Below, piece after piece: positions 5,422 through 27,763 of a stretch of DNA of 64,000 bases. The translations under genes were made by a program, and so were the position numbers. Every line of letters begins with the position of its first letter. Position 1 is the stretch's first letter. The stretch lies in NCBI GenBank assembly GCA_016125335.1, contig WGLY01000013.1, positions 62,001 to 126,000 of the forward strand, written 5' to 3'. Under the pieces are notes generated by a model, which was given only the letters and a program-made list of their open reading frames with translations, searched no databases and was not told the origin of the DNA. Origin of the DNA: Frankiales bacterium. GTDB taxonomy: Bacteria > Actinomycetota > Actinomycetes > S36-B12 > CAIYMF01.

Positions 5422-6954
5422 CTAGTGCAGAATCCGGTCTGTCCACGGTGCAGCTCCGGCTTCCGCGGACACGCTCACTCCCTGGTAGAGCGGATACAGG
5501 ATGTGCGGCGACGGGACGTAGCCCGTCACGCTCGTGCGCCACGCCCACACGTCGTTCGGGGACAGCAGGGGGATGTAGGGCAGCTCGGTGGCGAACACCC
5601 GCTGCACCGCGGACGCCGCCGACGCCAGCTCGTCGTCGGTCTCGGCGCGCAGCCAGTCGGTGGTGCACCGGTCCAGCGCCGGGACGGATGCGCGCGACCA
5701 GTTGGGGAACGGCGCAGTGCTCGTGGACGAGAACCCGATGAGCGCATCGAGGGGATCGGGCCACAACCACTTCGAGATCGAGCTCGCGGGCCCCGCCGCG
5801 CACGCGTCGTAGAACTCGGCGAAGGGTCGTGCGTACCGGATGCCCAGCTCGACCCCGATCGCTCGCAGCTGATCCGCGAGCAGCGTCGCCACGTCTCGGA
5901 ACACCGGGTCGTCCTGCACCACGCACTCGAACGACAGGCGCACCCCGTCCCTGCCCCGGACCCCGTCGGCGCCCCGGGCCCACCCCAGGGAGTCCAGAGC
6001 CGTCTCAGCCCTGCCGACATCGGGCCTGCGCCCCGAGTCGACCTCGGGGTCGTAGTACTCGGTGCCCGGAGGCACCGGGCCCCAGGTGGGGCTCCCGTGG
6101 CCGGCCAGGGCCCCGCGCACCAGTCCGTCGCGGTCGATGGCCGACGACAGCGCCCTTCGAAGACGCACGTCGTCGAAGCCCAGGTCCCGCCGGTCCCAGT
6201 TGAGCGAGAGGTACATGCTGGACGCCTGCCCCGCCTCGTAGACCTCGAACCTCGGGTCGTCCGCGAGTTCGTGCACCCGGTCGTAGTCGATACCGTGCAC
6301 GCAGTCGACTGCCCCCGCGCGCAGGGCCTCCCAGCGGTCGGCGGGATCGGGGAGCGCGAGCCACTCGACGCGGTCGAGGTCCGAGGAACCCCGGGGCAGA
6401 CCGGGCACCGCCAGGTTCGGGTAGCCCTCGACCCGGTCGGCGATGATGCGGTCGGCGTCCAGAGAGGCAAGCCTGAAGGGGCCGGTCCCGTCACAGATCG
6501 ACACACCGAAGTCGTCGGGATGTGCCAGCTGCGCGGCACGGTTGAAGACGGCCGTGTGAGTACCCCACAGCAGCGCAGGCAGACGCCGGTACGGGTGATG
6601 GAGCGTGAACCGAAGTCGCCTGTCGTCGAGCGGTTCGACCCGGTCGACCGGGTCCCAGTACCACAGCTGACGATCACCGGGCACGTGCCAGCGCAGCGCA
6701 TCGAGGCTCTCCGCGACCGCACGGGAGTCGCAGACCGCCCCTGAGTGGAAGACCGCGCCGTCACGCAGCTCGAGCGTCCAGGCGAGCCTGTCCTCGGATA
6801 TCTCGGCAACGCGGGCGAGACAGGGGTGGCCTCGACGGTCGTGGCCCTTCACGAGCAACGTGTCGTACAGCGCGATGGAGGGCGGGTCGATGTGGGCGCC
6901 CATCGGATCCAGGCGTGAGAAGGGGTAGTCGAAGGCTTCGCGCAGGACTCGCAT
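5422..6954 (-). CDS. Extracellular-solute-binding family 5 protein lacking any export signal
   Basis: This 510-residue protein has the peptide/nickel-binding (SBP_bac_5) fold: TWTLELRDGAVFHSG near the N-terminus, LSLNWDRRDLGFDDVRLRRA mid-protein and NDVWAW...LYPLYQGV at the end. Binding proteins of this family normally begin with a signal peptide or lipobox. Here the start ATG at 6954 leads straight into the mature domain (MRVLREAFDYPFSRLDP). The in-frame upstream residues run into the preceding gene and are not signal-like. The start matches its paralog at 25528 residue for residue in length. It is most likely cytoplasmic; its role is unknown. Confidence 0.8.
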   Translation of the reverse strand: MRVLREAFDYPFSRLDPMGAHIDPPSIALYDTLLVKGHDRRGHPCLARVAEISEDRLAWTLELRDGAVFHSGAVCDSRAVAESLDALRWHVPGDRQLWYWDPVDRVEPLDDRRLRFTLHHPYRRLPALLWGTHTAVFNRAAQLAHPDDFGVSICDGTGPFRLASLDADRIIADRVEGYPNLAVPGLPRGSSDLDRVEWLALPDPADRWEALRAGAVDCVHGIDYDRVHELADDPRFEVYEAGQASSMYLSLNWDRRDLGFDDVRLRRALSSAIDRDGLVRGALAGHGSPTWGPVPPGTEYYDPEVDSGRRPDVGRAETALDSLGWARGADGVRGRDGVRLSFECVVQDDPVFRDVATLLADQLRAIGVELGIRYARPFAEFYDACAAGPASSISKWLWPDPLDALIGFSSTSTAPFPNWSRASVPALDRCTTDWLRAETDDELASAASAVQRVFATELPYIPLLSPNDVWAWRTSVTGYVPSPHILYPLYQGVSVSAEAGAAPWTDRILH

Positions 6955-6991: not shown

Positions 6992-9046
6992 TCAGGCTCT
7001 GTGCGTGGCGGGCGGGGGCTCGAGCATGCGGTCGACCGCGTTGCGCACGACGCGCGCCAGACCACGGTCACGACGGCTGGTGAGGCACCCGCTCGCGGTG
7101 ATGGAGCCGAGCGCCAGGACCAGGCCACCCGCCGGCGTCCGGGTGAGGACGACATCGCACCGCACGGAGGGGGCGGGGGCGCGTGCGCCGTCGCGCTCGA
7201 ACGTGCCGAAGTGATCGCCCGTCGCAGGGCGCGACGTCGCGATGACGACCGACTCGCCGGGCGGCAGGCGGCCCGCATCGAAGACGTCGAACTCGTTGCC
7301 CGCGCCCCCGTTCAACCCGCCGCCACCGAACTCGTGGCCGTCCAACCCGTCGAAGATCCACGACCATCTCGGGTCGAAGCTCTCCGGTGTCCGCGAGAAG
7401 ACCATGGAGGCACCGTTGCCGAACCCGCCGAAGCCGACGCCGACGATGGAGTTGGGAGGACGGCCGGCCTCCTCCCACAGGCCCCCCGTGCGGGATTCGA
7501 ACTGGTGCAGGCGATCAGCCTCGTCGATCGACCAGGTCTGCGAGCCGCCCCAGCGCCGGATCTCCATCAGGTGCGGCTTGGTCGGGTGAAGCGACGAGAC
7601 CCAGTACAGCCCGTTGCCACCGAGGTACACCGCGCTGCCACCACCCGCCAGGAATTCCTCGAGCGCATCGAGCATGGTGGCGGTCCAGTACTCGGGATGC
7701 GCCGACAGCACGACGACCTTGGCACCGGCCAGTGCTGCGGCGCCGCGCAGGTGAAGGTCCCGGTCGTCGATGGCACCGCACCGGCCGGGGAACTCCTGCC
7801 GCATCCAGTGCCAGGCGTAGAGATCGGCCATCATCAGGTGCGTCGCGTTGACACCCGTCGCGAAGCCGTCCCCCGGGTCCACCTCCAGACGTGCTGTCGG
7901 CGCGAACGTCTGGGTCGGTCGCAGAGAGGTCGTCACGGTGACGGGAGACCCGTCCTCGTGCAGCGAGTAGTGGGACAACCCCGGCCAGGTGCCGTCGCGA
8001 CCGAGATTCGCGTAGGCCTGCCATGTGAGCGTCGGCACGAGCAGGGTCACGTCGTCGGCCCCTGAGACGACGAAGGGGAGCTCGTAGGCGACGGCCTCCG
8101 ACCCCAGCCTGATCGCGTAGAGCCCCGGGGCTGCGTCTTCCGGCACAGCGACCTGAGCGACCGCCGGCCAACCGCAGTCCTCCGTGTCGTCGCGGTGGAA
8201 GTGGACGGAGCCCGCTCGGCAGAGCATGCGGCCGGAGGACTCCAGCGGCGACGGGACGGCCGTGCTTCGCATGGGGGCATGGCGCAGGAGCAGCGCCGTT
8301 CCGGGGCCGGCGATGACCGGGGCGCGATCAGGGTCGGAACGGTCCGCGAGATCCCATTCCAGGTCGGCCGCGGCCCCGACCCCGTTCATGACGTTCATCA
8401 GGTCGACGACATCCAGCGCGCGCCGATGCAGACGAAGTCCTGCGACCTTGCCGTCCAGCTCTCCTCCGTCCCCCCGCGTTCCGATCCACAGGGCCCCCGA
8501 ATCCGGACGCAGGTCGGCGTCGAGCGGCATCGACTGGAACGGGCCACCTGTCCGTCCCCACACCGAGGCGAGCAGCGTGGCGCTCGCAGCGCCGCCATCC
8601 ACGCCGGGTGCGCACGTCACACCCACGAACATCCAGGCGCGCTCGCGGATGCGGTAGTCGAGGAGGTGGCGACTGTCCGTGCCCACGAGGGACAACCGTG
8701 ACCCCGTCACGCACAGGGAACGCGCTCCCCCGGTTGTGCTCCAGGTGGCGAGCACCACGTCGCGGCTCAGGTCGGTGAGCCACACCCACATCGAGAGCGT
8801 GAACTCGTCGGTCCCCACCAACGCGTCCTCCGCCGAAGCGAAGGAGCCGACGCTGGGCGCGACGAGCGGCGCCTCGATGGTTCCCGCGCCCCAGTCGCAG
8901 TCGTGGACCACGATGCCCGGTCCGTCGGGGTGCGGGTCTCCGTGCAGGTGCTCGCGCACCGTGGCCCGGGAGGTCGGGATGCCGGACCCGTGGATGTCGA
9001 GCGAGCCGCCCGGAGGAACCGAGAGCCTGCTCAGGTATGCACGCAT
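6992..9046 (-). CDS. N,N-dimethylformamidase large (beta) subunit-like protein
   Basis: The 684-residue protein has a LamG/concanavalin-like N-terminal part (residues ~70-210, FTLSMWVWLTD, LDGKVAGLRLH). The C-terminal half resembles the dimethylformamidase beta subunit: LTWQAYANLG (Y345), SHYS (Y360), LYAWHW (Y410) and SAHPEYW. H450-P-E452 matches the His-x-Glu pair I recall at the mononuclear iron site of the Paracoccus enzyme (His519/Glu521). The family hydrolyses small amides to amine plus acid. The characterised enzyme is about 760 residues and pairs with a ~15 kDa alpha subunit, which I do not recognise here. The EthD-like gene lies 8 bases upstream. Confidence 0.75.
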   Translation of the reverse strand: MRAYLSRLSVPPGGSLDIHGSGIPTSRATVREHLHGDPHPDGPGIVVHDCDWGAGTIEAPLVAPSVGSFASAEDALVGTDEFTLSMWVWLTDLSRDVVLATWSTTGGARSLCVTGSRLSLVGTDSRHLLDYRIRERAWMFVGVTCAPGVDGGAASATLLASVWGRTGGPFQSMPLDADLRPDSGALWIGTRGDGGELDGKVAGLRLHRRALDVVDLMNVMNGVGAAADLEWDLADRSDPDRAPVIAGPGTALLLRHAPMRSTAVPSPLESSGRMLCRAGSVHFHRDDTEDCGWPAVAQVAVPEDAAPGLYAIRLGSEAVAYELPFVVSGADDVTLLVPTLTWQAYANLGRDGTWPGLSHYSLHEDGSPVTVTTSLRPTQTFAPTARLEVDPGDGFATGVNATHLMMADLYAWHWMRQEFPGRCGAIDDRDLHLRGAAALAGAKVVVLSAHPEYWTATMLDALEEFLAGGGSAVYLGGNGLYWVSSLHPTKPHLMEIRRWGGSQTWSIDEADRLHQFESRTGGLWEEAGRPPNSIVGVGFGGFGNGASMVFSRTPESFDPRWSWIFDGLDGHEFGGGGLNGGAGNEFDVFDAGRLPPGESVVIATSRPATGDHFGTFERDGARAPAPSVRCDVVLTRTPAGGLVLALGSITASGCLTSRRDRGLARVVRNAVDRMLEPPPATHRA

Positions 9047-9054: not shown

Positions 9055-9408
9055 TCAGGATGACTCGGTCGGTCGGCGGGGTCGCTCGGGTGCACTGCCG
9101 AGGCCGGGGTCGACGACGACGCGCACGGCCGATCCGGGCTCCGCGAACGTGGCGGTGTGCGCACGCAGCGCGAGCGCCTCCTCCGAGGCGAGGCTGCGTC
9201 TCAGATCCTCCACGGAGTCGAAGTCGAGGAACCCCACCCCGTCATACGCCTGGTCGATCCCCGGTACGTTCGCGGTCGGCTGGAACAGGACGCTCCGCAC
9301 GTGCGGGAGCGCGCTCGCCAGAGCGCGGTGCTCGCCCAGCCAGGCCGCGAGGAACTCCTCGGTCGTGGAGCCGGGACGGCGTCGCAGGACGGCGATGTAG
9401 CGGATCAT
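9055..9408 (-). CDS. EthD-domain small protein
   Basis: This 117-residue protein is a single dimeric alpha/beta barrel domain of the EthD type (MIRYIAVLRRRPG..FLAAWLGEH, then a phenylalanine/aspartate-rich strand GVGFLDFDSVEDLRRSL). Such proteins assist ring or side-chain degradation; some are enzymes and most are of unknown activity. The start ATG 9408 has a strong GGAGG site 6 bases upstream. It sits directly between an amidohydrolase and the dimethylformamidase-like gene, where a small partner subunit might be expected. A larger relative lies at 22855-23553. Confidence 0.7.
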   Translation of the reverse strand: MIRYIAVLRRRPGSTTEEFLAAWLGEHRALASALPHVRSVLFQPTANVPGIDQAYDGVGFLDFDSVEDLRRSLASEEALALRAHTATFAEPGSAVRVVVDPGLGSAPERPRRPTESS

Positions 9409-9425
9409 CACGCACCTCCCGGAAG

Positions 9426-10688
9426 TCAGCCGAACGTCAGCAGTCCGCCACGGGCGACCAGCTCCCCGCCCTTCCAGACGGCCAGCGGCCGGTTCACCGC
9501 CTCGATCTCCTTCCCCACGTCGCCGTCGACGAGGAGCAGGTCGGCCCACAGGCCGGCCCGGATCGAGCCGACACGGTCGTCGAGGCGGAAGGCCTCCGCC
9601 GCCGTCGTCGTGGCCGCCGCGAGCGACTGGGCCGCCGACAGCCCGACCTCGCGGTGCAGCGCGATGATCGAGCCGGCCACGGAGCCATGAGCCACTCCGG
9701 GCACCCCGGCATCGGTTCCTGCGAGCAGGGGGATCCCGGCCTCGCTCATCGCGGCGAACAGCGGGAGCATCGCGCGGCGCTGCTCAAGCCGCCGCTCGGA
9801 GCTGTCCGAGCCGTCGCCGTTGCCGGGCCGGGCCACCATGAGCGTGGGGTCGACGTAGCACCCGGCGTCGAGCACTCGCTTGATGGTCGCGGCCTCCAGC
9901 GAGATGGAGCCATCAGGGTTGGTGCAGGTCGCGTGCGCGATGACCCGCGCCCCCACCGACGCCGCGAGCTCCACCGCCTCCGCCGTATGCGCGTGGGTCA
10001 CCAGCGGGCGGCCGAGGCGGTCGCACTCACGCGCCAGCGCCTCGATCGCCTCGGGCGGGAACTGCAGACGGGTCGGGTTGCTGCCCTCCGTGATGTTGCC
10101 GCCCGTGACCATGACCTTGATGACATCGACCCCTGAGGCGACGTGCGACCGCATCGCGCGCACGAGGTCCTCCTGCGAGTCGGCGGTTCCGCCCAGCCAG
10201 TGGCAGTGACCCGCCGTCGTCGTGAGCGGAGCCCCGCTGACCAGCAAGCCCGTGCCCTGGAGCCGTCCCGCGGCGATGCCGTCCCGCAGGGCGAGCACGA
10301 CCTCCGTCGTACCCCCGCAGTCGACCGCTGTCGTGACCCCCTTGGCGAGACCGCGTTGCGCGTTGCCCACGGCACGAGCGAGCTGCGCCGCCACCGACTC
10401 CCGGAGGATGTTGTCCACCACGTGCCCGTCGGAGCTGAACGTGAGGTGCACATGGGAGTCGATGAGGCCCGGGAGCAGCGTGGCTCCCGGCGCCTCGACG
10501 ACCTGCATACCCCGCGTGGACGCATCACCACGGGCGACGACGGAGTCGATGACCCCGCCTCGCACCAGGACGTCGTAGCCGTCCGCGACGTCGCCCCCAG
10601 GCAGCAGGACGTGCCCGGGGCGGATCGCCCACACTTCGTCGGGCATCGGAGGTCGTAGCCCTCCGGACAGGCCCGGACCTTCCTGCAT
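9426..10688 (-). CDS. Amidohydrolase (imidazolonepropionase/prolidase-like)
   Basis: This 420-residue metal-dependent hydrolase has first metal motif LIDSHVHLTF, probable carbamylated lysine region VIKVMVTGG, THAHTAEAV and AHATCTNP for the next metal ligands, and the late Asp motif LLAGTDAGVPG. The length and motif order match cytosolic amidohydrolases of the imidazolonepropionase/Xaa-Pro group that open lactam, hydantoin or imide bonds. ATG 10688 follows a G-rich purine stretch; an in-frame ATG near 10646 is possible. It lies 22 bases after the metallo-beta-lactamase-fold gene in the same operon. Confidence 0.8.
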   Translation of the reverse strand: MQEGPGLSGGLRPPMPDEVWAIRPGHVLLPGGDVADGYDVLVRGGVIDSVVARGDASTRGMQVVEAPGATLLPGLIDSHVHLTFSSDGHVVDNILRESVAAQLARAVGNAQRGLAKGVTTAVDCGGTTEVVLALRDGIAAGRLQGTGLLVSGAPLTTTAGHCHWLGGTADSQEDLVRAMRSHVASGVDVIKVMVTGGNITEGSNPTRLQFPPEAIEALARECDRLGRPLVTHAHTAEAVELAASVGARVIAHATCTNPDGSISLEAATIKRVLDAGCYVDPTLMVARPGNGDGSDSSERRLEQRRAMLPLFAAMSEAGIPLLAGTDAGVPGVAHGSVAGSIIALHREVGLSAAQSLAAATTTAAEAFRLDDRVGSIRAGLWADLLLVDGDVGKEIEAVNRPLAVWKGGELVARGGLLTFG

Positions 10689-10710
10689 GGTGAACCCCTG
10701 TCTCCCGCTC

Positions 10711-11454
10711 CTAGAGCAGGCTGGGCGGCAGCCCGATGCGATTGAACTGGTCGGCGGCGGACTGGACGTGCCGTCGGCCGTTCTCGAGGGAGAAGTTGAG
10801 ATGACCGGGCATGAGCGCCTGGAAGTCATACTCGAGCAGGAGGTTCATGGACTTCGCGTAGTCCTGGACGCTGGAGTCGGCCACGTTCTGCAGGATGATC
10901 TTCCCGCCCCAGAACACATGGTCGCCGCTGAAGAGGTAGCTGCGCTCGCCGCCGGTCACCAGGAAGTTCATGTGACCGTTGCAGTGCCCGTTCGTCTCGA
11001 TCGCGGTCAGCTGGAAATCGTTGCGCTGCACGGCCTGGTTGTGCGTGAGCTCCACGTCGATGTCGCACGGTTCCCAGGTGAAGTCGCTCGGGTAGAAGTT
11101 GAAGGACTTGGCCCATCTCAGGCCGATGACCTCCTCGTCCGCGACGCGGACCGCCGGCGCTGCACGTTCGCTGATGCAGATCTCGAGGTGGTCGTCCAGC
11201 GACTCGCGCATGTAGGCGAGCGCACCCGCGTGGTCGGCGTGGTAATGGGTCACGAACAGCTTGGTGATCCGGTTCAGGTCCAGTCCGTCGGCGCGGATGT
11301 TGGCGAGGACGCGGTCACCACCGTCGAACCCGGCGTCGATCATCCAGAGCTCGTCACCAGTGTCGATGACGTACACGTTCGAGTCGAGCCGGTTCGACAG
11401 GTTGTACCCGTAGTCGCCGCCTCCGACGACGTAGAGATGGTCGTTGATCTTCAC
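10711..11454 (-). CDS. Metallo-beta-lactamase-fold hydrolase (copy 1)
   Basis: This 247-residue protein has the full zinc motif set: THYHADHAG, NGHCNGH, GDHVF and a late MPGH. MBL-fold enzymes hydrolyse lactones, thioesters or lactams. It is homologous along its whole length to the protein at 27014-27763, including the YPSDFTWEPCDID region (YPADSSFPPCAVD in the paralog). The GTG start at 11454 overlaps the upstream SDR stop by 4 bases (GTGA), so the genes are translationally coupled. The substrate is unknown; a cyclic ester or thioester intermediate is plausible. Confidence 0.8.
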   Translation of the reverse strand: MKINDHLYVVGGGDYGYNLSNRLDSNVYVIDTGDELWMIDAGFDGGDRVLANIRADGLDLNRITKLFVTHYHADHAGALAYMRESLDDHLEICISERAAPAVRVADEEVIGLRWAKSFNFYPSDFTWEPCDIDVELTHNQAVQRNDFQLTAIETNGHCNGHMNFLVTGGERSYLFSGDHVFWGGKIILQNVADSSVQDYAKSMNLLLEYDFQALMPGHLNFSLENGRRHVQSAADQFNRIGLPPSLL

Positions 11455-12260
11455 TTGGCCAACAGCTCCTCAGGGATGGAGTAGGAATGCGCCCGCAGGC
11501 CGCCGTCCACGACGATGTTCTGACCAGTGATGTAGGCGGCGTCGCCCGAGGCCAGGAACGCGAACGTGGCAGCGATCTCCTCGGGCTTGCCCAGCCGCTT
11601 CATCGGCACCAGCGGCCAGTACTTCCTCGCCGCCTCCATGGCCTCGTCCGAACCGAGAACGTCCCGGGACTGAGGGGTGTCGAGAGGGCCAGGGCTGACG
11701 GCGTTGACACGGATGCCGTGGTCGACCAGCTCGATAGCCATGGTCTGCACCAGGTTCACGATCCCTGCCTTGGCCGCGCCGTAGTGGGCGTACGAGATCG
11801 ACGCACCCAGGGACGAGACCGAGGACGTGTAGAGGATCGACCCGGGTGTCCCCGACGCGACCATCGCGCGAGCGGCGAGCTGACCCAGCACGAAGCTGCC
11901 GCGCAGCATCACCGCGATCGTCCTGTCCCACTCCGACCGCTCGAGCTCGAGGAACGGCGCCGAGGAGTGCGCAGGGGCGTTGCTGACGAGGATGTCGAGC
12001 GCGCCACCCACCTCTACCGCCCTGGCGACGACGGCGTCGCAGTCGGCGTCGACGGACACGTCGCCCGGGACTCCCACAACGTTGGCCCCCGTCGACTCGT
12101 GGACCTCGGCCACGACCTCGGGGAGGGCCGCAGCGTTGCGGTCCATCAGGACGATGTTCGCGGCGCCTTCCTCGCCGAAGCGGTGCGCCGTGGCCCGGCC
12201 GACACCACTGGCACCCCCCGTGATGAGCGCGGTCTTGCCTTCCAGTCGCCTGCATGACAT
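11451..12260 (-). CDS. Short-chain dehydrogenase/reductase (copy 1)
   Basis: A classical SDR of 269 residues: cofactor motif TGGASGVG near residue 15, LDILVSNAP, catalytic Ser in YTSSVSS, and Tyr-Lys in YAHYGAAKAG. The C-terminus is typical (TGQNIVVDGG). Such enzymes oxidise or reduce secondary alcohols with NAD(P). It closely resembles the SDR at 24725-25525 (both share LGSDEAMEAAR), indicating an old duplication between the two blocks. ATG 12260 is 5 bases after the E1 beta stop. Confidence 0.85.
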   Translation of the reverse strand: MSCRRLEGKTALITGGASGVGRATAHRFGEEGAANIVLMDRNAAALPEVVAEVHESTGANVVGVPGDVSVDADCDAVVARAVEVGGALDILVSNAPAHSSAPFLELERSEWDRTIAVMLRGSFVLGQLAARAMVASGTPGSILYTSSVSSLGASISYAHYGAAKAGIVNLVQTMAIELVDHGIRVNAVSPGPLDTPQSRDVLGSDEAMEAARKYWPLVPMKRLGKPEEIAATFAFLASGDAAYITGQNIVVDGGLRAHSYSIPEELLAK

Positions 12261-12265: not shown

Positions 12266-13249
12266 TCAAACCTCCATCAGAGCTGACATTGCCTCGGACA
12301 CTCGGGAAACCGTGGGGAGCACCGCCTGCGCCAACGGCGGCGCGGCGGGCACCGGCGTGCCACGCAGGCCGACGCGTCCGCTGGCGCGCAGCCCGCTCCC
12401 CAGCGCGGAGGAGACGGTGCTGACGACCTCGGCGCCGAAGCCGCCGGTCTCGTTCGCCTCGTGGACGACGAGCAGCCGACCCGTCCGCCCCACCGACTCG
12501 ATGACTGCACCGGAGTCCCACGGGGACAGCCACCGCAGGTCGATCAGGTCCACGGAGGGTGCCGCCGCGTCGGCCAGGGACTCCTCCACCAGAGCGCGTC
12601 CCGTGCCCCACGTCACGACCGTGAGTTCCGAGCCCCTGCGCACGGTCTCCGAGACACCCAGTCCCGCGTCGGCCTCTCCGGGAGCCACGTCGCCCTTCGT
12701 CGGGTAGAGGCGACGCGACTCGAAGATCATCACCGGGTCCTCGGACTCGATCGCCAGGCGGAGCATGGAGTAGGCGTCGCGGGGTGTCGACGGGACGCCG
12801 ACCCGCAGACCGGGGACGTGCGCGAACAGCGCCTCCAGGGACTGGCTGTGCTGGGCGCACGCGCCGGGCGTGTGACCCTGCTGCGTCCGGATCACCAGCG
12901 GCGCCGTGAGAGCACTGCGGGACACGTACCGTGCGTTCGCCACCTGGTTCACGATCTGGTCCATGGCGACGAGCAGGAAGTCTGCGTAGATCACTTCGAG
13001 CACGGGGCGCAGACCACCCATCGCAGCCCCGAGAGCCGTGCCGACCATGGCCGACTCCGAGATGGGCGTGTCGATGACGCGGTCGCCGAAGGCGGCGTGC
13101 AGGCCCTTGGTCGCACCGAAGGGCCCGTTGGGGAGAGCCACGTCCTCCCCGAGGACGATCACGCTCGGGTCGGTTGCCAGAGCGTGCTCCAGCGCGAGAT
13201 TCACCGCGCGGATGTAGGACAGTGCCTGGACGTCAGCGAGCGTAGACAT
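12266..13249 (-). CDS. 2-oxoacid/acetoin dehydrogenase E1 component, beta subunit
   Basis: This 327-residue protein contains the transketolase pyrimidine-binding domain (VIVLGEDVALPNGPFG, DTPISESAMVG) and the transketolase C-terminal domain (DLIDLRWLSPWD, VVHEANETGGFGAEV). It forms the thiamine-diphosphate heterotetramer with the alpha subunit, whose reading frame it overlaps by 17 bases. No lipoyl acyltransferase (E2) or dihydrolipoamide dehydrogenase (E3) is encoded in the window, so the E1 must borrow an E2 from elsewhere or act differently. The substrate (pyruvate-like, branched-chain or acetoin) is not decidable. Confidence 0.85.
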   Translation of the reverse strand: MSTLADVQALSYIRAVNLALEHALATDPSVIVLGEDVALPNGPFGATKGLHAAFGDRVIDTPISESAMVGTALGAAMGGLRPVLEVIYADFLLVAMDQIVNQVANARYVSRSALTAPLVIRTQQGHTPGACAQHSQSLEALFAHVPGLRVGVPSTPRDAYSMLRLAIESEDPVMIFESRRLYPTKGDVAPGEADAGLGVSETVRRGSELTVVTWGTGRALVEESLADAAAPSVDLIDLRWLSPWDSGAVIESVGRTGRLLVVHEANETGGFGAEVVSTVSSALGSGLRASGRVGLRGTPVPAAPPLAQAVLPTVSRVSEAMSALMEV

Positions 13250-14226: not shown

Positions 14227-14889
14227 TCACCTGTGCACGCCCGGTGGCACGGGTGGGTGCAGCGCGGGCTCGCCGACGGACGCGTAGGCGATCTGCTCGG
14301 CCACGAACGCGGCAACGGAGTGGGTCATGTGGGCGGTCCACCTGTCGCGGGCTCCGTCCGGTGGGTCGAGGTAGTGGACGTGCAGACGCAGCGACCACGC
14401 TCGGATCCACCGTCCCAAGCGCTCCATCGACTGGGCTGGCACCTCGTCGCAGGGATCCGCGAGAGCGATGGCGGGGATGACGCGCCACGGCTCCGCACCG
14501 GCGAGATCGGCGTCGTCCAGGGTGGGCGCGACGAGTGCGGTCGCCAGCACCGAGGCCGGCGGCACCGCGTAGAGCAGCTCGCATGCCGATCCCACCGCGA
14601 CCGTCGCGATGTGGGGATGCAGACGTCGGCACTCGTCGAGCGCCGCACCCACGGCCCGGGCTCCGTCGGCGTCCCAGTCCCCCTCGCTGAGCCCGTGACC
14701 GGGCAGATCCAGGAGGACCGTGGTCAGCTCCAGCCTGGCGAGCGATGCGGCGAACGGGCGCACGAGATCCAGGTCCGAGCCTCGGTCGTGCAGAAGGAGC
14801 ACGCACCCTCGGGCGTCCGGCTGCTCTGTCACCTCGCCGAAGACGGAGACATCGGGTCCCAGCGTCAGCTCGAGCGAACGCGGCTTCAT
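14227..14889 (-). CDS. Alpha/beta-hydrolase-fold protein with degenerate nucleophile elbow
   Basis: The 220-residue protein shows the fold's HDRGSDLDL oxyanion-type strand turn, LLDLPGHGLSEG, and a C-terminal region with a histidine (TAHMTHS). The position of the usual G-x-S-x-G elbow reads AVGSACELL, so the last glycine is replaced by cysteine. It may be a hydrolase with an altered elbow or a non-catalytic relative. The ATG at 14889 overlaps the stop of the ABC ATPase by 4 bases, placing it in the transporter-enzyme operon. Confidence 0.65.
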   Translation of the reverse strand: MKPRSLELTLGPDVSVFGEVTEQPDARGCVLLLHDRGSDLDLVRPFAASLARLELTTVLLDLPGHGLSEGDWDADGARAVGAALDECRRLHPHIATVAVGSACELLYAVPPASVLATALVAPTLDDADLAGAEPWRVIPAIALADPCDEVPAQSMERLGRWIRAWSLRLHVHYLDPPDGARDRWTAHMTHSVAAFVAEQIAYASVGEPALHPPVPPGVHR

Positions 14890-15671
14890 CGCTCGACACC
14901 TTGCGTCGGCAGCATCGGGATGGAGGCCACGAGCTTCTTGGTGTACTCGTGCTCGGGAGACGTGAGGATCGTCGTGGGATCTCCCCGCTCCACGATCTGG
15001 CCCTGGGACATGACGACCACGCGATCGCAGAACTGCCGGACGACGCCGAGGTCGTGGCTGATGAGGACCACCGTGAGCCCCAGGCGCAGCCTGAGGTCCG
15101 CGATCAGGTTCAGCACCTGCCCGCGCATGGACACGTCGAGCGCGCTGACCGGCTCGTCCGCGATCAGGACACGCGGGTCCATGGCCAGTGCTCGGGCGAT
15201 GGCGACGCGCTGCCGTTGACCCCCGGAGAGCTGGTAGGGGTGCAGCGACGCGTACCTGCTCGGCAACCCGACGAGCTCCAGCAACCGCTCGGCCTCGCCC
15301 CGGCGCGCCCGCCTGTCGACGTCGCCACGGATGCCCTCGAGGAGGATGCGCTCGATGGTCATGCGTGGGTTCATGGACGAGTACGGGTCCTGGAACACCA
15401 CCTGCACGAGCCTCGGCAGCTGCCTGCGCTCGGCGCGCGATCCCTCCCACACGTCGATGCCGCAGATCCGCGCCGATCCCGACGTCGGCGCCACCAGGCC
15501 CAGGAGGATCCGGGACACGGTGGTCTTGCCACTCCCGCTCTCGCCGACGATCCCGAACGACTCGCCGTCCTCGACCGCGAACGACACGTCGTCCACCGCC
15601 CGGTGCAAGCCCTTGCCGGCCCGGGACCTGAACTCCTTGGTCAGTCCGCTGACCTCGACGACGGGACTCAC
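14886..15671 (-). CDS. Oligopeptide-type ABC transporter ATPase (DppF/OppF-like)
   Basis: This 261-residue ATPase has Walker A GESGSGKTT, Q-loop FQDPYSSMNPR, signature LSGGQRQR, Walker B VLIADEPVSALD and switch histidine SHDLG. These are the features of the second ATPase of peptide/opine/nickel importers; it powers uptake with the DppD-like partner. The GTG start at 15671 overlaps the upstream ATPase stop by 4 bases. The longer frame to 15803 is the shadow of the preceding gene. Confidence 0.9.
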   Translation of the reverse strand: MSPVVEVSGLTKEFRSRAGKGLHRAVDDVSFAVEDGESFGIVGESGSGKTTVSRILLGLVAPTSGSARICGIDVWEGSRAERRQLPRLVQVVFQDPYSSMNPRMTIERILLEGIRGDVDRRARRGEAERLLELVGLPSRYASLHPYQLSGGQRQRVAIARALAMDPRVLIADEPVSALDVSMRGQVLNLIADLRLRLGLTVVLISHDLGVVRQFCDRVVVMSQGQIVERGDPTTILTSPEHEYTKKLVASIPMLPTQGVER

Positions 15672-16681
15672 GCGAGCCCCCTCTCGTCCAGAGGGTGGTG
15701 ACAGCGCACACCGTGGAACTCCGAGCCCGACACCTCGGGGTGGACCTGGCACTGGGAGTCCGCACGCGGGCACCGGTTCGCGAACCGGCAGCCCGCGAGC
15801 CACTCGGCAGGCTCGGGAACCACCCCATCGATGTAGCCGAACGGCACCCCGCGCTCCCCGTGGCTCGCGCAGTCGAGCAGCCCTCGCGTGTAGTGATGGC
15901 GCGAGACCGCGAAGATCTGCCCGGTGTCACCGGTCTCGACGATCTCCCCCGCGTACATGACGGCGACCCGGTCTGCGAGCTGCGCGACGACCGCGAGGTC
16001 GTGCGAGATCCACAGCACGCTCATGTCGAGCTCGTCGCGGAGCCGGTGGACGAGTCGCAGGATGCTCGCCTGAGTCGTCACGTCCAAGGCCGTCGTCGGC
16101 TCGTCCGCGATCAGCAGCTTCGGTTCGAGCAGGAGGGCGGTGGCGATCATGACGCGCTGCCTGAGGCCACCGGACAGCTCGTGCGGGAAGGCATCGAACC
16201 GACGCTGCGGCTCCGGCACCCCCACGTGGCCGAGGAAGTCGATGGCGCGCCTGCGTGCCGCGCCCTTCGACACGCTCTCGTGCTCCGTGATGGCCTCCAC
16301 CATCTGCCGACCGATCCGGAAGCACGGATCGAGGCTGGTCATGGGGTCCTGGAAGATCATGGCCATCCGTGGCCCGCGCATGCTGCGCAGACCGGCGCGG
16401 CTGGCGGACACCACGGAGGCGCCCGCCGCACGGATGTCGCCTTGGGTCGCTGCCACACCGTCGGGCAGCAGGCCCATGCAGGCGAGCGCGGTCAGACTCT
16501 TGCCCGAACCGCTCTCGCCGACCAGGCCCACGATCTCGCCGTCGCCGACCGTGAGGGAGACGTCGGTCACGAGCGGGCGGTGATGCTGGCCGTGCACGAC
16601 CGAGATCTCCAGCCCGTGGACCTCGAGCGCCGGCTCCGGCACGACTCCGGGCCTCTCCTGAGTGCTGGTCGCCTCGGTCAT
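15668..16681 (-). CDS. Oligopeptide-type ABC transporter ATPase (DppD/OppD-like)
   Basis: The 337-residue protein has Walker A GESGSGKSL, FQDPMTSLDP, signature LSGGLRQR, Walker B LLIADEPTTALD and SHDLAVV. The C-terminal oligopeptide-transporter extension contains a cysteine cluster (CRFANRCPRADSQC) that in several family members binds an iron-sulfur cluster. The ATG at 16681 overlaps the permease stop by 4 bases. The long open frame upstream of this start is antisense-like noise. Confidence 0.9.
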   Translation of the reverse strand: MTEATSTQERPGVVPEPALEVHGLEISVVHGQHHRPLVTDVSLTVGDGEIVGLVGESGSGKSLTALACMGLLPDGVAATQGDIRAAGASVVSASRAGLRSMRGPRMAMIFQDPMTSLDPCFRIGRQMVEAITEHESVSKGAARRRAIDFLGHVGVPEPQRRFDAFPHELSGGLRQRVMIATALLLEPKLLIADEPTTALDVTTQASILRLVHRLRDELDMSVLWISHDLAVVAQLADRVAVMYAGEIVETGDTGQIFAVSRHHYTRGLLDCASHGERGVPFGYIDGVVPEPAEWLAGCRFANRCPRADSQCQVHPEVSGSEFHGVRCHHPLDERGLA

Positions 16682-17577
16682 CGCGAGCTCCGGTTGCGCG
16701 GGTCGAACCGATCCCTGAGGTTGTCGGCGAGGGCGTTCATGAGCAGCACGAGGACGGTCAGCGCGCCTCCCGCGAGGACGACGGGCCACCAGCTCTTGCT
16801 CAGGTAGTCCCGTCCGTCGGCGAGGATCACGCCGAGGCTCGGCGTGGGCGGCTGTGCGCCCAGTCCGAGGAAGGACAGGCCGGACTCGGCCACGATGGAC
16901 GTCGACACGAAGAAGACGGACATGACCACGGTGACCGGGAACAGGCTGATCAGAAGGTGCGTCAGGCTGATCCGGATCCGCGAGACTCCGAGCACGCGAG
17001 CCGCCGAGATGAAGTCGCGCTCGCGCAGGGACAGGATCTCCCCGCGCACGATGACGGCGAAGCTGGCCCACCCGGTGAGGGCGAGGGCAAGGATCACCGC
17101 CGGCAGCCCCGGACCGAGCCAGCCGGCGAAGACGATCGCGAGGAGGATCGCCGGGAACGCCCAGGTCACGTCGACCACCAGCGCCGTGCCCACCGAGGCC
17201 GCCCGCCCGAAGAAGCCTCCGAAGACCCCGAGCGCCAGGCCGAGGACGACGGAGATGATCGCGACGCCCACGCCCACGCAGATGGACACACCGAGACCAC
17301 CCAGGATCCGCCACATCAGGTCGCGCCCCAGGCTGTCGGTGCCCAGCGGGTGGCCCGGCGACAGCGGCGGCTTGAAGGTCGCCAGCAGATCCTGGTCGGT
17401 CAGCAGGTGGTTCAGGCTCGGGACGGTCAGGACGATGATCCCCACCAACCCGGCAACGCCGTACACCGTGAGGCCGCCGACGACCCACGGGTTGATCCGC
17501 GCGCGGCGGGACTCGCTGCCGACCGCGGTGTAGATCGCGCGGCCGGAGGACACCGGCTCGGAGGTAGGGGCGCTCAT
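16678..17577 (-). CDS. Oligopeptide-type ABC transporter permease (DppC-like)
   Basis: A 299-residue inner-membrane protein with an N-terminal transmembrane helix (VVGGLTVYGVAGLVGIIVL), then the DppC-type loop (HPLGTDSLGRDLMWRI) and five further hydrophobic helices. The permease motif that docks the ATPase is seen near ISAARVLGVSR. It pairs with the DppB-like permease, whose stop codon its ATG (17577) overlaps by 4 bases. The long in-frame extension upstream is not used. Confidence 0.9.
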   Translation of the reverse strand: MSAPTSEPVSSGRAIYTAVGSESRRARINPWVVGGLTVYGVAGLVGIIVLTVPSLNHLLTDQDLLATFKPPLSPGHPLGTDSLGRDLMWRILGGLGVSICVGVGVAIISVVLGLALGVFGGFFGRAASVGTALVVDVTWAFPAILLAIVFAGWLGPGLPAVILALALTGWASFAVIVRGEILSLRERDFISAARVLGVSRIRISLTHLLISLFPVTVVMSVFFVSTSIVAESGLSFLGLGAQPPTPSLGVILADGRDYLSKSWWPVVLAGGALTVLVLLMNALADNLRDRFDPRNRSSR

Positions 17578-18509
17578 GCCGCCTCGGATCCGGTCAGCCG
17601 CACCCGCGGATCGGCCCATCGGTAGACGACGTCGGTGATGGCGCTGGAGATGATCACGACCGCAGCGAGCAGGAGCGCCAGGGCCTCCGCCACCGGGTAG
17701 TCGCGATGCAGGATGCTGTTCACGAGCTGGGTGCCCAGGCCCGGCCAGCGGAAGATCACCTCGACGATCAGGGTGTATCCGAGCAGCGTCCTGATCTGGA
17801 TCGATCCGAGCGAGATGATCGGCGAGAGCGAGTTCCTGAGCACGTGCACCCAGTGGATCCTCACCTGACGCACTCCACGTGCCCAGAGGGTGCGGGTGTA
17901 GTCGGCGGTGAGCTGTTCCAGCACCGCCGTACGACCCACCCGCACCGTGAGCGCGCAGGGCTCAGCAGCGAGGATCAGCGCCGGCAGGATGAGGTTCTTG
18001 AAGGAGCCCGAGCCTGAGACCGGTAGCCACTTGAGGTAGAGGCCGAACACCAGCACCGCGACCAGGGCCAGGACGAAGTTGGGGATCGCCAGGAAGAAGC
18101 TGGCAATGGTCAGCGAGAGACGGTCGAACCATCCCCCCTTGTTCAGCGCGGAGACAACGCCGATGGGGACCCCGAGGCCGAAGGCCACGACGAAAGCCGC
18201 GAGCGCGAGGATCACGGTGTACGCCGCCGAGTTCGCGATCACGGTGGTGACAGGGAGCTTCGTGACCAGCGAGACCCCGAGGTCCCCGCCGAGCATGCCG
18301 GTGAGGTAGTTCCAGTACTGCTGCCAGAGCGGCAGGTTCAGACCGAGTCGGTCCTTGAGCTGCTCCACGACCTCCGGCGGCGTCGTCGCGGGGTTGACGA
18401 TGCTCGCGACGACGTCGCCGGGCGTGGCTCGCAGGGACACGAAGGTGACGATCGAGGCGAGGAACAGCACGAGGACGGCGTACGCGAACCGCTGCAGTAC
18501 ATACCTCAC
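17574..18509 (-). CDS. Oligopeptide-type ABC transporter permease (DppB-like)
   Basis: This 311-residue membrane protein opens with MRYVLQRFAYAVLVLFLASI, the standard first helix of DppB permeases. It keeps the conserved RATPGD motif, the ATPase-docking region TLWARGVRQ, and the family ending PRVRLTG. The GTG start at 18509 is 53 bases after the lipoprotein gene's stop. It forms the import channel together with the DppC-like protein. Confidence 0.9.
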   Translation of the reverse strand: MRYVLQRFAYAVLVLFLASIVTFVSLRATPGDVVASIVNPATTPPEVVEQLKDRLGLNLPLWQQYWNYLTGMLGGDLGVSLVTKLPVTTVIANSAAYTVILALAAFVVAFGLGVPIGVVSALNKGGWFDRLSLTIASFFLAIPNFVLALVAVLVFGLYLKWLPVSGSGSFKNLILPALILAAEPCALTVRVGRTAVLEQLTADYTRTLWARGVRQVRIHWVHVLRNSLSPIISLGSIQIRTLLGYTLIVEVIFRWPGLGTQLVNSILHRDYPVAEALALLLAAVVIISSAITDVVYRWADPRVRLTGSEAA

Positions 18510-18562: not shown

Positions 18563-20233
18563 TCAGGTGGAGAGCCACACGTCGTTGTAGAACGGGTACA
18601 GGTTCGCCTGGTTGGGCGTCCAACCGACGACCTTCTTGGTGGAGGCCCAGATGGTGTCCGGCGTGACCAGCGGGATCAGGGCCAGCTGCTCCGCGAAGGT
18701 CACCTGGTAGTTCTCCGCCGCGGTCTTGAGCTGCTGCTCCGTGGCCGCCTGCTCCCAGGGTTGGTACGCCGCCAGGGTCGCCTTCGCGCCCGCGGCGTCC
18801 GTCGGCTGGTAGAACTGCACGAACAGCGCGCTGACGTCGACGACTCCGGACCAGAGCCACTTGAATGCGTAGGAGTCCAGCGTGTTCGTGAGCTTCGGGA
18901 AGAACGCCGCACCTTCGAGAGCCTCGACCTTCATCTCGATGCCCACCTTCTTGAGCATCTCCACGACGGCCTGCATGACCTTCTCCTCCGTCGACTCCGC
19001 CATCTGCAGCGTCGTGAAGGACATGCGCGTCCCGTTCTTGGTGCGGACGCCGTCCGACCCGGCGACCCACCCGGCCTCGTCGAGAAGCTGGTTGGCCTTG
19101 CCCGTGTCGTACGCGTTCATCGGCTCGACCGCCGGGTTGTACCACTTGAACCCCGGAGGCACCGGCCCGTAGGTGGCGGCCGCGTGACCGAGGTAGATGG
19201 AGTCCACGAGGGCCTGCCGGTCGATCGCCGCGGAGATCGCCTGACGGACCTTGATGTCGTCGAAACCGAGCTTGGAGTTCCCGAGGTTGACGCTCAGGAA
19301 GAAGTTCGAGAGCTCTTGGAACTCCACGACGACGAGATCGCTGTTCGACTTCAGACGATCGACGTCCTGGGGCGGGGCGTTCTTGACGGCGTCGACGTTT
19401 CCGGACTCCAGCTCGTTCGCGCGCTGCGACGCCTGGGTGATCGGCACCCACTTGATGCCGTCGAGGTACGCCTTCCCCTTGTTCTGGAAGAAGGGCGTGA
19501 TGGAGCCGGGGTAGTCCTCCCAACGGGAGGCGACGCAGCTCTGCGGCGAGAACGAGTCCATCTTGAACGGCCCCGTCCCGTCGACGACGGACGCCCCGTA
19601 CTGCGCGCCGGCCTTCTCACGCGCGGCAGGGTTGAGGATGAAGGCGTACTCCGTCGTGATGGTCTCCTGGAACGCCCGGTAGTCGCTCTTCGTCTCGCAC
19701 TTGATCACCTGGCCCTCGCTGGTGATCTTCGTGATGGGCGCCCACCACGGGAAGTTCTGACCCGTCTTCGGGTCCGCGAAGAGCTTGAAGTCCGTGACGA
19801 CCACGTCCGGGGTCACGGGAGCTCCCGAGTGGAACTTCAAGCCGTCCCGGAGCGTGAAGTCCCAACCGGTGGGACCGCTGGTGAAGCTGCTGGCCAACAT
19901 CGGCACAGGCGTGCCGTCGGGGTTGCGGATGATCAGCGCCTCGTAGAAGGCGTAGAACGTGGGGTCGGCCCAGGCGTTCTGGACGGGATCCGGCGGTGTC
20001 AGATCGCGGTCGTAACCCTCGCGGAAGGTCCCACCCGGGGTGGGCGAGCCCGTGGGCGTCGGGGTCGAGGAGGAGTCCGGGCTCGGCGACGAGCAGGCGG
20101 CGAGGAATGACGACGCGAACGCTGCGGTCAACCCCATCGAGGCAGCGCCCTTGAGGAAGCCGCGTCGCGAGATCCCGGTGTTCGCCAGTTCCCGTAGCCG
20201 GGCCTCGCTACTACCACTTCCCTGTTCTGTCAT
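18563..20233 (-). CDS. Peptide-type ABC transporter substrate-binding lipoprotein (Tat signal)
   Basis: This 556-residue protein begins with a twin-arginine motif (SRRGFLK, residues 22-28), a hydrophobic stretch and a lipobox LAAC with C47, followed by a Ser/Thr/Pro-rich linker. The mature part is an SBP_bac_5 domain (FTLRDGLKFHSG, FDDIKVRQAISAAIDR, NLYPFYNDVW). It should be exported folded and anchored to the membrane as the importer's receptor. ATG 20233 has an AAGGAGG site 7 bases upstream. It is the first gene of the minus block, behind a promoter with a LacI-type operator. Confidence 0.92.
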   Translation of the reverse strand: MTEQGSGSSEARLRELANTGISRRGFLKGAASMGLTAAFASSFLAACSSPSPDSSSTPTPTGSPTPGGTFREGYDRDLTPPDPVQNAWADPTFYAFYEALIIRNPDGTPVPMLASSFTSGPTGWDFTLRDGLKFHSGAPVTPDVVVTDFKLFADPKTGQNFPWWAPITKITSEGQVIKCETKSDYRAFQETITTEYAFILNPAAREKAGAQYGASVVDGTGPFKMDSFSPQSCVASRWEDYPGSITPFFQNKGKAYLDGIKWVPITQASQRANELESGNVDAVKNAPPQDVDRLKSNSDLVVVEFQELSNFFLSVNLGNSKLGFDDIKVRQAISAAIDRQALVDSIYLGHAAATYGPVPPGFKWYNPAVEPMNAYDTGKANQLLDEAGWVAGSDGVRTKNGTRMSFTTLQMAESTEEKVMQAVVEMLKKVGIEMKVEALEGAAFFPKLTNTLDSYAFKWLWSGVVDVSALFVQFYQPTDAAGAKATLAAYQPWEQAATEQQLKTAAENYQVTFAEQLALIPLVTPDTIWASTKKVVGWTPNQANLYPFYNDVWLST

Positions 20234-20264
20234 GACAGTCCTCCTTGGCCGGTCGGTGGAAGGG

Positions 20265-24724: not shown

Positions 24725-25525
24725 ATGGGCTGCGAACGGCTGGTCGGCACATCGGCGCTCATCACCGGCGCCGGCAGCGGGGTGGGGCGGGCGACCGCGC
24801 TCCGGTTCGCGCAGGAAGGCGCGTCCACCATCGGAGTGTTCGACCGCGACGAGGCTGCCGCGGTGGAGACCGTCGCCGCCGTCGAGGAGCAGGGGGCTCA
24901 CGGCATCGCGCTCGTCGGCGACGTCAGGTCGCGACACACGTGCCAGTCGGCGGTGGACGCGGTCGTGGATGCGGCGGGCCGGCTCGACGTACTGGTGAGC
25001 AACGCCGGGGCCGACGGTGACGCGCCCTTCCTGGAGATGACCGACGAGGAGTGGCACAGGGTCATCGACGTGAACCTGACGGCGTCCTTCATCCTGGGTC
25101 AGGTGGCCGCGCGCGCGATGGTCGCCGCCGGCACGGGAGGTGTGATCCTCTACACGGCGTCCATCTCCGGGCTGGGGGCGTCTGACGGCGATGCGCACTA
25201 CGGCGTCTCCAAGGCGGGCATCGTCAATCTGGTCCAGACGATGGCCATCGAGCTGATCCCCCACCGCATCCGGGTGAACTGCGTGAGCCCGGGCCCGCTC
25301 GACACACCGCTGTCCCGCGCGCTGCTCGGGAGCGACGAGGCGATGGAGGCGGCACGATCGCACTACCCGCTGGTGCCGATGGGTCGCCTCGGGATGCCGG
25401 AGGAGATCGCTGCGGCGTATGCGTACCTCGCGTCGGCGGACGCCGCGTACACGACGGGCCAGAATCTGATCATCGACGGTGGGAACCACGCCACCGTCTT
25501 CGTGAATCCCGTCGGGAGCTTCTAG
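24725..25525 (+). CDS. Short-chain dehydrogenase/reductase (copy 2)
   Basis: A 266-residue classical SDR: TGAGSGVG cofactor motif, LDVLVSNAGADG, YTASISG catalytic serine region, AHYGVSKAG with Tyr and Lys, and terminal TGQNLIIDGG. Its closest relative here is the SDR at 11451-12260, with shared LGSDEAMEAAR and matched length. The two may act on related alcohols in the two branches. ATG 24725 follows the aminotransferase by 15 bases with a GGAG site. Confidence 0.85.
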   Translation: MGCERLVGTSALITGAGSGVGRATALRFAQEGASTIGVFDRDEAAAVETVAAVEEQGAHGIALVGDVRSRHTCQSAVDAVVDAAGRLDVLVSNAGADGDAPFLEMTDEEWHRVIDVNLTASFILGQVAARAMVAAGTGGVILYTASISGLGASDGDAHYGVSKAGIVNLVQTMAIELIPHRIRVNCVSPGPLDTPLSRALLGSDEAMEAARSHYPLVPMGRLGMPEEIAAAYAYLASADAAYTTGQNLIIDGGNHATVFVNPVGSF

Positions 25526-25527: not shown

Positions 25528-26985
25528 TTGCCCGATCTCGACGAGGTCTTCGAGTACCGGTTCAGCCCACTGGATCCGGTCCGTGGCGATCACATCGACC
25601 CGCCCACGATGGCGATCTACGAGACGCTCCTCACCAAGGGCCCGGATGGCCGGCCGCGGCCCGGCCTCGCCACCTCGTGGCAGGTCTCGGACGACGGGCT
25701 GACCTGGTTGCTGAGGGTCCGCGACGGCGCTCGCTTCCACACGGGCAGGACGTGCGACGCGGCAGCCGTCGTCGAGGCGCTCGAGCTGTGCCGCTGGGGC
25801 GAGGGCTTCCCCCGTCAGGTCTGGTACTGGGACCCCGTCGACAACGTCACGGCCCGGGACGACACGACCGTGGTCATCCGTCTCCGGCAGCCCACCCCAC
25901 GCCTCCCGGTCCTGCTGTGGGGCACCCACACCGCCGTGGTCAATGCCCGCAGCTGGGGCCGTCTGGGAGCGGACTTCGGCGTGGCGCTGGCCGATGGGAC
26001 CGGCCCCTATCGCATGCGGAGCTATCGGCCGGAGGAGGTCGTCGCCGAGCGGGTCGACGCCCGTCCCGGCGCCCCGACCGTCCTCCGTTGGCGTTCGGTG
26101 CCCGACGAAGAGGAGCGGGAGGCCATCGCCGAGCGCGGCACCGCGGACATCGTGCGTCAGGTGCCACGGCTCCGCCCTGATCGGACGGCTGGGTGGTCCG
26201 TCCAGCGCCAGCCCGAGAACTCGCAGTTCTACCTGGCCCTGAACTGCGCCGATCCTCGCTTTAGCACCGCCCTGGTCCGGCGGTGCATCGACGCGTTCGT
26301 CGATCGCGACGAGCTGCTGCAGCGGGCCCTCGCAGGGGAGGGCGATGCCCGACGCTCGCCGGTCCCGGCCGCCGACGAGTTCGCCGGCGCGTACGACCCG
26401 CGCGAGGTCCCCCCGATGAGCCGCGGCGAGGCGCGGGAGGCGCTGCGCTCCCTCGGGTGGCTGCCAGGACCCGACGGCGTGCTGGCACGAGACGGCGTCA
26501 CGATGCACGTCGAGACGGTCGCGCAGGACACCGAGGTCTGCCGCCGGATCGCGGAGGGTCTGACCTCGGCCCTGCGGGACGTCGGGGTGGCGCTCGACTT
26601 CCGGTTCGAGGAGCTGTTCGGGCCGTTCTACCGCGCCGTGGAGCAGGGCCCGGCCGCCTTCCTGAACAAATGGCTCTGGCCGGATGCGATGGAGGCCGTC
26701 TACGGCTTCAGTCGGACGGACTGCATCGAGCCGGCTGGCGGCAACTGGCAGTCGGCGTCGTGCCCGGTGGTCGACGAGGCCTTCGACGACTTCGGCCGTG
26801 CACGGACGGATGCCGATCTGCGCGCCGCGAGCGCCGCCCTTCAGCGCGACTTCATGCTGGAGCTGCCCTACCTGCCGCTCGTGTCTCCGGTGGAGACGCT
26901 CGCCACGGGCCTCGCCGTCGGTGGGCTCCGGCTGACCCCACGGACCCTGTACCCGACCTACGAGGGCGTCGTGGTGTCGCGATGA
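25528..26985 (+). CDS. Second SBP_bac_5 protein lacking any export signal
   Basis: This 485-residue protein is a paralog of 5422-6954: VFEYRFSPLDP, WLLRVRDGARFHTG, YLALNC, FLNKWLWPDAMEAVYGFS and a YPTYEGVVV ending line up throughout. The TTG start at 25528 lies two bases after the SDR stop, leaving no space for a signal peptide in frame. The absence of a leader is therefore real, not a start-choice error. Cytoplasmic location is inferred. It may sequester or deliver an imported oligomeric substrate, or have gained an enzymatic role. Confidence 0.8.
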   Translation: MPDLDEVFEYRFSPLDPVRGDHIDPPTMAIYETLLTKGPDGRPRPGLATSWQVSDDGLTWLLRVRDGARFHTGRTCDAAAVVEALELCRWGEGFPRQVWYWDPVDNVTARDDTTVVIRLRQPTPRLPVLLWGTHTAVVNARSWGRLGADFGVALADGTGPYRMRSYRPEEVVAERVDARPGAPTVLRWRSVPDEEEREAIAERGTADIVRQVPRLRPDRTAGWSVQRQPENSQFYLALNCADPRFSTALVRRCIDAFVDRDELLQRALAGEGDARRSPVPAADEFAGAYDPREVPPMSRGEAREALRSLGWLPGPDGVLARDGVTMHVETVAQDTEVCRRIAEGLTSALRDVGVALDFRFEELFGPFYRAVEQGPAAFLNKWLWPDAMEAVYGFSRTDCIEPAGGNWQSASCPVVDEAFDDFGRARTDADLRAASAALQRDFMLELPYLPLVSPVETLATGLAVGGLRLTPRTLYPTYEGVVVSR

Positions 26986-27013: not shown

Positions 27014-27763
27014 GTGCGTCTGACGTCGGACGTGTGCCTGGTGGGCGGAGGACCGACCTTCGGCTTCGGGCTCACGCCCGGCACCGACGCCCACGTCTAC
27101 CTCCTGGACGGCGGTGACGAGGCGGCGCTCGTGGACTGCGGGATGGGGTCCGACGCCTCGTTCGACCAGTTGGTCCGCAACGTACGCGGCGACGGGGTCG
27201 ACCCTGACTCCGTGACCAGGCTCTTCATCACTCACTACCACGCCGATCACTGCGCCGGGGCGTCTCGGTACCGACATGCCCTCGGCCTCGAGGTGCTCAC
27301 CGGCCACGACACTGCTGACGCCCTGGAGGCGGCCGACCACCGAGCCACCAGCTACGACGCGTCGCGGGCGCTCGGCGTCTATCCGGCCGACTCCTCCTTC
27401 CCGCCATGCGCGGTCGACACCCGGCTCGGTGACGGCGACGAGGTCCGGGTCGGGCGGTTGTCGGTCACCTTCGTCGCCACGCCGGGCCACTGCGCCGGGC
27501 ACGGCTCCTACGTGGTCTCCGGCGGTGACCGGACCTACCTGCTCTCCGGTGACGCGCTCTTCGCCGGGGGCCGGCTCCTGCTCCAGGCGACGCGCGATTG
27601 CGACCTGCAGCGGTCCTTCGCGTCGGTCCGGACCTTGGCGGCGCTGGATGTCGACAGCCTCCTGCCGGGGCACGGCCCCGTGGCTCTGACAGGGGGGCGC
27701 GACCACGCTCGTGCCGCGCTGGCCACTATCGACGCGCTGGGTGTTCCCGCGAGCCTGGTCTAG
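27014..27763 (+). CDS. Metallo-beta-lactamase-fold hydrolase (copy 2)
   Basis: The 249-residue protein carries THYHADHCAG, TPGHCAGH, SGDALF and LPGHG, so all zinc ligands are present. It aligns end to end with the MBL protein at 10711-11454. GTG 27014 has GGAGGTGGC directly upstream. It is the fifth gene of the plus-strand block. The reaction is unknown; lactone or thioester hydrolysis is the family's common theme. Confidence 0.8.
   Translation: MRLTSDVCLVGGGPTFGFGLTPGTDAHVYLLDGGDEAALVDCGMGSDASFDQLVRNVRGDGVDPDSVTRLFITHYHADHCAGASRYRHALGLEVLTGHDTADALEAADHRATSYDASRALGVYPADSSFPPCAVDTRLGDGDEVRVGRLSVTFVATPGHCAGHGSYVVSGGDRTYLLSGDALFAGGRLLLQATRDCDLQRSFASVRTLAALDVDSLLPGHGPVALTGGRDHARAALATIDALGVPASLV

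Follow-up and report, generated by a model that had tools for sequence, protein, structure and literature searches.

Solute-binding proteins (SBPs) are regarded as extracytoplasmic almost by definition. SgrR of Escherichia coli is a regulator with a C-terminal SBP_bac_5 domain that is used inside the cell, and AmiC, which senses amides for the amidase operon of Pseudomonas, belongs to an SBP family other than SBP_bac_5 and acts through AmiR. SBP profiles are known to detect some single-domain proteins that are cytosolic, with AmiC the cited example (PMC9602780), and the evolution of an SBP into an enzyme has a precedent in cyclohexadienyl dehydratase (PMC7683729). In the open-access literature (subscription papers were outside the search), no description of a stand-alone cytosolic SBP_bac_5 protein was found. 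The 64,000 nucleotide stretch of a Frankiales bacterium analysed here (contig WGLY01000013.1, positions 62,001 to 126,000), referred to as the window, encodes two SBP_bac_5 proteins that have no export signal, SBP-A (5422..6954, minus strand, 510 amino acids) and SBP-B (25528..26985, plus strand, 485 amino acids), as well as SBP-C (18563..20236, minus strand), the exported receptor of an Opp-type importer and their sister. As far as has been searched, a conserved stand-alone SBP_bac_5 protein that lacks a signal and is encoded next to an exported sister has not been described.

The nearest solved folds are those of the SBP_bac_5 receptors AapF, DppA, NikA and GbpA, with which SBP-A shares the Pfam family and the full-length fold, and the SBP-A gene lies beside an Opp-type importer. 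SBP-A and its homologues differ from the Opp/Dpp/Nik-type receptors in having no export signal or lipobox, in an identity of about 20%, and in that the importer has a receptor of its own. SBP-C belongs to a sister clade with about 30% identity and has the KWLW-type motif in common with SBP-A and SBP-B, but it carries a twin-arginine translocation (Tat)-type motif and a lipobox and lacks H21, Q96, H133 and D400, which are invariant in the other two. SgrR has a fused N-terminal DNA-binding domain, which is absent from 13 members of the signal-less clade, where the chains start at the SBP domain; an SgrR-type regulator is rejected on this basis. AmiC is likewise a cytosolic stand-alone SBP-like protein (PMC9602780), encoded beside amide-degrading genes, whereas the sole Pfam match of SBP-A is PF00496 and no AmiR counterpart was recognised among the neighbours scanned. 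Cyclohexadienyl dehydratase also has a binding-protein ancestor (PMC7683729), but it is related to the amino-acid-binding SBPs, which are another family, and is comparable only in how it works.

A preliminary description of this DNA held that 5422-6954 begins at the mature SBP_bac_5 domain, with no signal, and the Pfam match, the start tests and all 14 of 14 homologues bear this out. The open reading frame (ORF), for which that description gave no strand, is on the minus strand; it runs from an ATG at 6954 to a TAG stop at 5422 and matches SBP_bac_5 with 186 bits against a curated cut-off of 32.4 (E 1.4e-54). The chain begins at the mature domain, with neither a signal peptide, nor a Tat signal, nor the lipobox of exported receptors. 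Upstream of this ATG no stop interrupts the frame over 119 codons, and start codons occur 5, 10, 37, 39, 58, 67, and 108 codons before it. Those more than 10 codons upstream are all within the gene for a DMFA2_C protein (9046-6992), which ends some 38 nt before SBP-A. The same description had called the upstream in-frame sequence another gene; the stretch overlaps the DMFA2_C gene, which is read in another frame. Translation from ATG 6984, just past the end of the DMFA2_C gene, would lengthen the protein by no more than MAPTVLRARD.

Every in-frame ATG, GTG, and TTG was assessed, as had been proposed, with a home-made hydrophobicity and motif scan rather than SignalP. The best hydrophobic stretch from any upstream start was AGASPAVVTVVW (score 1.48, mildly hydrophobic), with no Tat motif, no lipobox, and no counterpart in the homologues. 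No in-frame start of SBP-A adds a credible signal, and a wrong start or hidden signal is therefore rejected. The closest orthologue, L023 (62% identity), has the same ATG start, behind a ribosome-binding-like GGGAGGG. Structure prediction, which had also been suggested, returned a full SBP fold, the AlphaFold2 model of SBP-A having a mean confidence (pLDDT) of 92.0 and a predicted TM-score (pTM) of 0.90. The model has the two lobes of the Opp/Dpp/Nik-type SBPs and matches many SBPs over residues 1-498 at Z 35-40; the best match of the whole chain is AapF (7kz8; Z 40.0, root-mean-square deviation 2.7 over 467 residues, 21% identity). SBP-A is predicted to be a complete SBP fold.

In the case of SBP-B, which is 43% identical to SBP-A, the absence of a signal is even clearer. 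The TTG start is 2 nt past the stop of the short-chain dehydrogenase (SDR) gene SDR2, and the 114 open codons upstream contain no start codon at all. The AlphaFold2 model has a pLDDT of 93.2. There is a weak match to the NCBIfam SgrR profile, at 26 bits against a cut-off of 476.

The signal-less clade has 14 intact members in 11 genomes of the Actinomycetota and Chloroflexota, of which nine are A-type (SBP-A, L023-L029, and L151) and five are B-type (SBP-B and L030-L033); the named homologues all come from metagenome-assembled genomes. The hydrophobicity and motif scan found no export signal in any of the 14. An in-frame stop lies 5 codons upstream of L025 and 4 codons upstream of L030, L151 has its sole start in 90 open codons right at the domain, and L031 has AAGGAGG immediately before the domain ATG. 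In five cases the start codon shares nucleotides with the stop codon of a gene for a cytosolic enzyme or lies 2 nt from it: an alpha/beta-hydrolase at L028 (GTGA), an M20 peptidase at L151 (ATGA), a metallo-beta-lactamase-fold (MBL) hydrolase at L032 (TGATG), and an SDR, 2 nt away, for SBP-B and L033. SBP_bac_5 is the only Pfam domain in 13 of 13 aligned members, with no extra or fused domain. Relatives on plasmids were considered for membership and rejected; the best have 26-30% identity, and at the three loci opened they are SBPs beside their own permeases. A truncated A-type SBP on a Lentisphaerae contig (L034, 10001-10891; about 216 amino acids aligned), where the usual neighbours are missing, is a broken or recently acquired fragment.

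To place this in context, 93 SBP_bac_5 places in 17 genomes of the bacterium's family were compared, a set outside which lie the A/B members of genomes G013 and G001. A signal-like hydrophobic segment is present at 86 places, three are cut by ends, and four have no such segment, these being the two window copies, L117, and L093. By eye, L117 is a Tat lipoprotein overlooked by the simple test (RRDLLRMTAIGGSAAALSPLMTAC). L093 (G013:C229:7770-9503) is an SBP_bac_5 ORF outside the clade that starts inside the domain and looks broken, perhaps through a frameshift in a metagenome-assembled genome. The only convincing exceptions among the 93 places are thus the two copies in the window. Tat-type motifs are present in nine of nine C receptors, and a lipobox in most. 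Since no other testable place in the family is convincingly without a signal while 14 of 14 clade members lack one, the sequence comparison confirms that the absence is more than chance and no accident of start choice.

In a midpoint-rooted tree of 55 rows, with the A/B members as then known and thin sampling outside the Actinomycetota, the A/B proteins form one clade (support 100/100) that is sister to the C receptors lying beside OppBCDF (98/92). The A, B, and C proteins group together (100/100) to the exclusion of 33 other SBPs, among them E. coli GsiB, NikA, and DppA, and the B-type sequences branch from within A. On the simplest view, the importer receptor was probably duplicated once and export lost once, with the A/B split coming later. 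The comparison of L024 with L025 (Thermomicrobiales) gives dN/dS values of 0.052 (A), 0.044 (C), 0.049 (SDR), and 0.053 (MBL), which are approximate at a dS of about 1 to 2. The clade has about 70 invariant residues, and the data indicate that it is under strong purifying selection; a pseudogene is rejected by the dN/dS values and the conservation. Between the window and its relative the identities are 62% for A, 55% for B, and 85% for C, so A and B have evolved faster than C. Co-duplication of SDR, MBL, and SBP as a unit is not claimed, the SDR tree being weak and the MBL tree not mirroring the A/B split.

Residues H21, Q96, W98, Y99, D101, W130-H133, Y382, D400, N418, and W419 are invariant in A and B and absent in C. 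In an alignment to NikA and DppA that, at about 20% identity, is suggestive only, Q96 falls on NikA W100, H133 on NikA R137, and D400 on DppA D408, which we take to be ligand contacts. The title of PDB entry 8z1z (DppA R383D+D436R) fits the D408 contact, because removal of the 28-residue signal turns precursor residue 436 into residue 408. Over the seven contact-aligned columns, identity is 76% in A/B against 47% overall, and 57% against 53% in C. This is suggestive of an A/B cleft that has been altered yet conserved, with new invariant polar residues.

It is very likely that SBP-A and SBP-B are cytosolic pathway components of some kind. The possibility of an intracellular carrier or enzymatic role, raised in the preliminary description, gains support at the level of sequence because the homologues lack signals, the starts are coupled to enzymes, the importer has its own receptor, selection is purifying, and the cleft is altered and conserved. 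The reading tentatively favoured, with a probability of roughly 0.45, is that a duplicated receptor has become a cytosolic enzyme, or an obligate substrate-handling or hand-over protein, in the degradation pathway of the imported compound. On this reading, both proteins would be cytoplasmic descendants of the adjacent importer's receptor and would bind, inside the cell, either the compound taken up or an early product of its degradation. The cleft might now serve one catabolic step as an active site or by presenting the substrate in an obligate manner, and the residues at work would include the clade-invariant H133, D400, and Q96. Three things favour this: the presence of two copies beside a single importer, gene coupling that is with enzymes and not with regulators, and the gain of invariant polar residues in the cleft. 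Several points weigh on the other side. No catalytic motif was recognised in SBP-A, an altered and conserved cleft is as compatible with a new ligand as with catalysis, the MBL tree, in not mirroring the A/B split, does not establish a strict pairing of SBP and enzyme, the cytosolic location is inferred from sequence, and the low identity behind the cleft alignment has been noted above.

A clade that keeps the fold and loses export, beside an exported sister, would amount to a natural experiment in the change from receptor to metabolic protein, and one that is directly testable because the exported and cytosolic versions share one locus. It is also a caution that an SBP_bac_5 gene is not always a transporter component.

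The proteins may instead be cytosolic sensors that, on binding the compound taken up by the importer, signal to a regulator or an enzyme, like AmiC with AmiR or the SBP domain of SgrR. AmiC is the precedent for a cytosolic single-domain protein recognised by SBP profiles (PMC9602780), amidase and amidohydrolase genes are present in the locus, and LacI or GntR genes are close by in many clade loci. However, A and B have no fused DNA- or RNA-binding domain, the LacI and GntR-FCD regulators of these loci come with ligand domains of their own, no ANTAR-type or AmiR-like partner was recognised among the neighbours scanned, which are part of all neighbours, the gene overlaps are with enzymes and not regulators, and two copies would serve one locus. 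A sensor is considered unlikely.

Doubtful, too, is a cytosolic carrier or buffer that holds the imported compound and passes it to the SDR, MBL, or amidohydrolase with no chemistry of its own. Such a role would suit the binding-protein descent, the full SBP fold, and neighbours of which the SDR is constant and the MBL frequent, but the invariant polar cleft residues exceed those of C at the same columns, and we know of no precedent for a stoichiometric cytosolic carrier of a catabolic substrate, which counts against it.

Export without a classical signal, for instance as a passenger of a Tat substrate or through some non-classical pathway, would make SBP-A and SBP-B ordinary importer receptors. 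Signal-free export is invisible in sequence, and these are full SBPs in the cluster of an importer; against this, every complete locus provides the importer with a separate receptor that bears a signal, loss of the signal would be exceptional among some 90 family members, and the starts overlap cytosolic enzyme genes, which makes such export improbable. A decaying duplicate or start-site artefact, for which there is the faster evolution of SBP-A and SBP-B relative to C and the broken Lentisphaerae fragment, is very improbable given intact copies in 11 genomes of two phyla, a dN/dS of about 0.05 in the closest pair with the invariant residues already described, and the lack of any alternative start that provides a signal.

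The importer (14886..18509, minus strand) consists of the ATPases OppF (14886-15803) and OppD (15668-16650) and the permeases OppC (16678-17619) and OppB (17574-18509), identified from their ORFs, named by sequence reading, and kept beside SBP-C in homologous loci. A separate lipoprotein receptor had been said to serve this importer, which agrees with the Tat-type motif and LAAC lipobox of SBP-C. SBP-A had also been placed among enzymes and away from the permeases; this is correct for its immediate neighbours, but SBP-A and the importer operon, in which OppF ends at 14886, are in one same-strand run. A pair within this run (12266-14267, minus strand) reads like the E1 alpha and beta subunits of a 2-oxo-acid dehydrogenase.

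Upstream of SBP-A on the minus strand are SDR1 (11451..12257), a constant neighbour of the signal-less clade and 62% identical to its paralogue SDR2, MBL1 (10711..11454; Pfam Lactamase_B), which co-occurs with the clade, an amidohydrolase (9426..10829; Amidohydro_1), an EthD-domain protein (9055..9414), and, directly adjacent, the DMFA2_C protein (6992..9046), which resembles the N,N-dimethylformamidase beta subunit. The last has 684 amino acids, with DMFA2_C in its C-terminal half and an N-terminal part that has no Pfam match and reads as LamG-type-like; its homologues recur near signal-less SBPs in the Actinomycetota. Downstream of SBP-A on the same strand, again by Pfam, are an amidase (3857-5239) and an Amidohydro_3 protein (2251-3855). 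SBP-B is flanked on the plus strand by SDR2 (24725..25525) directly upstream and MBL2 (27014..27763) directly downstream. For an aminotransferase (23555-24709), the GntC match is below the cut-off (314 against 415 bits) and no assignment is made.

Across the clade, an SDR gene is near every intact member but L029, which is at a contig end. An MBL-fold hydrolase is near most; none could be recognised in the vicinity of L028 or immediately next to L030, and the L151 contig is too short for a judgement. The C-OppBCDF operon, whole or in part, is near all loci save those on short contigs (L026, L029, and L151). Within the order, A/B, MBL1, and C are all present in the same 5 of 166 genomes, so that the locus behaves as a unit and adjacency is partly common descent. 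The Chloroflexota loci have an extra PNPOx-like protein, and one also an alpha/beta-hydrolase. Proteins near the signal-less SBP at L024 (13397-14281), L031 (17560-18441), and L151 (3343-4638) read like luciferase-like (LLM-class) oxidoreductases; such proteins recur in several clade loci and were not seen in the part of the window examined, no profile search having been made. In the window, 29965-31065 (plus strand) encodes a histone-deacetylase-family protein, possibly an acetylpolyamine amidohydrolase, beside FAH and M20 hydrolase genes.
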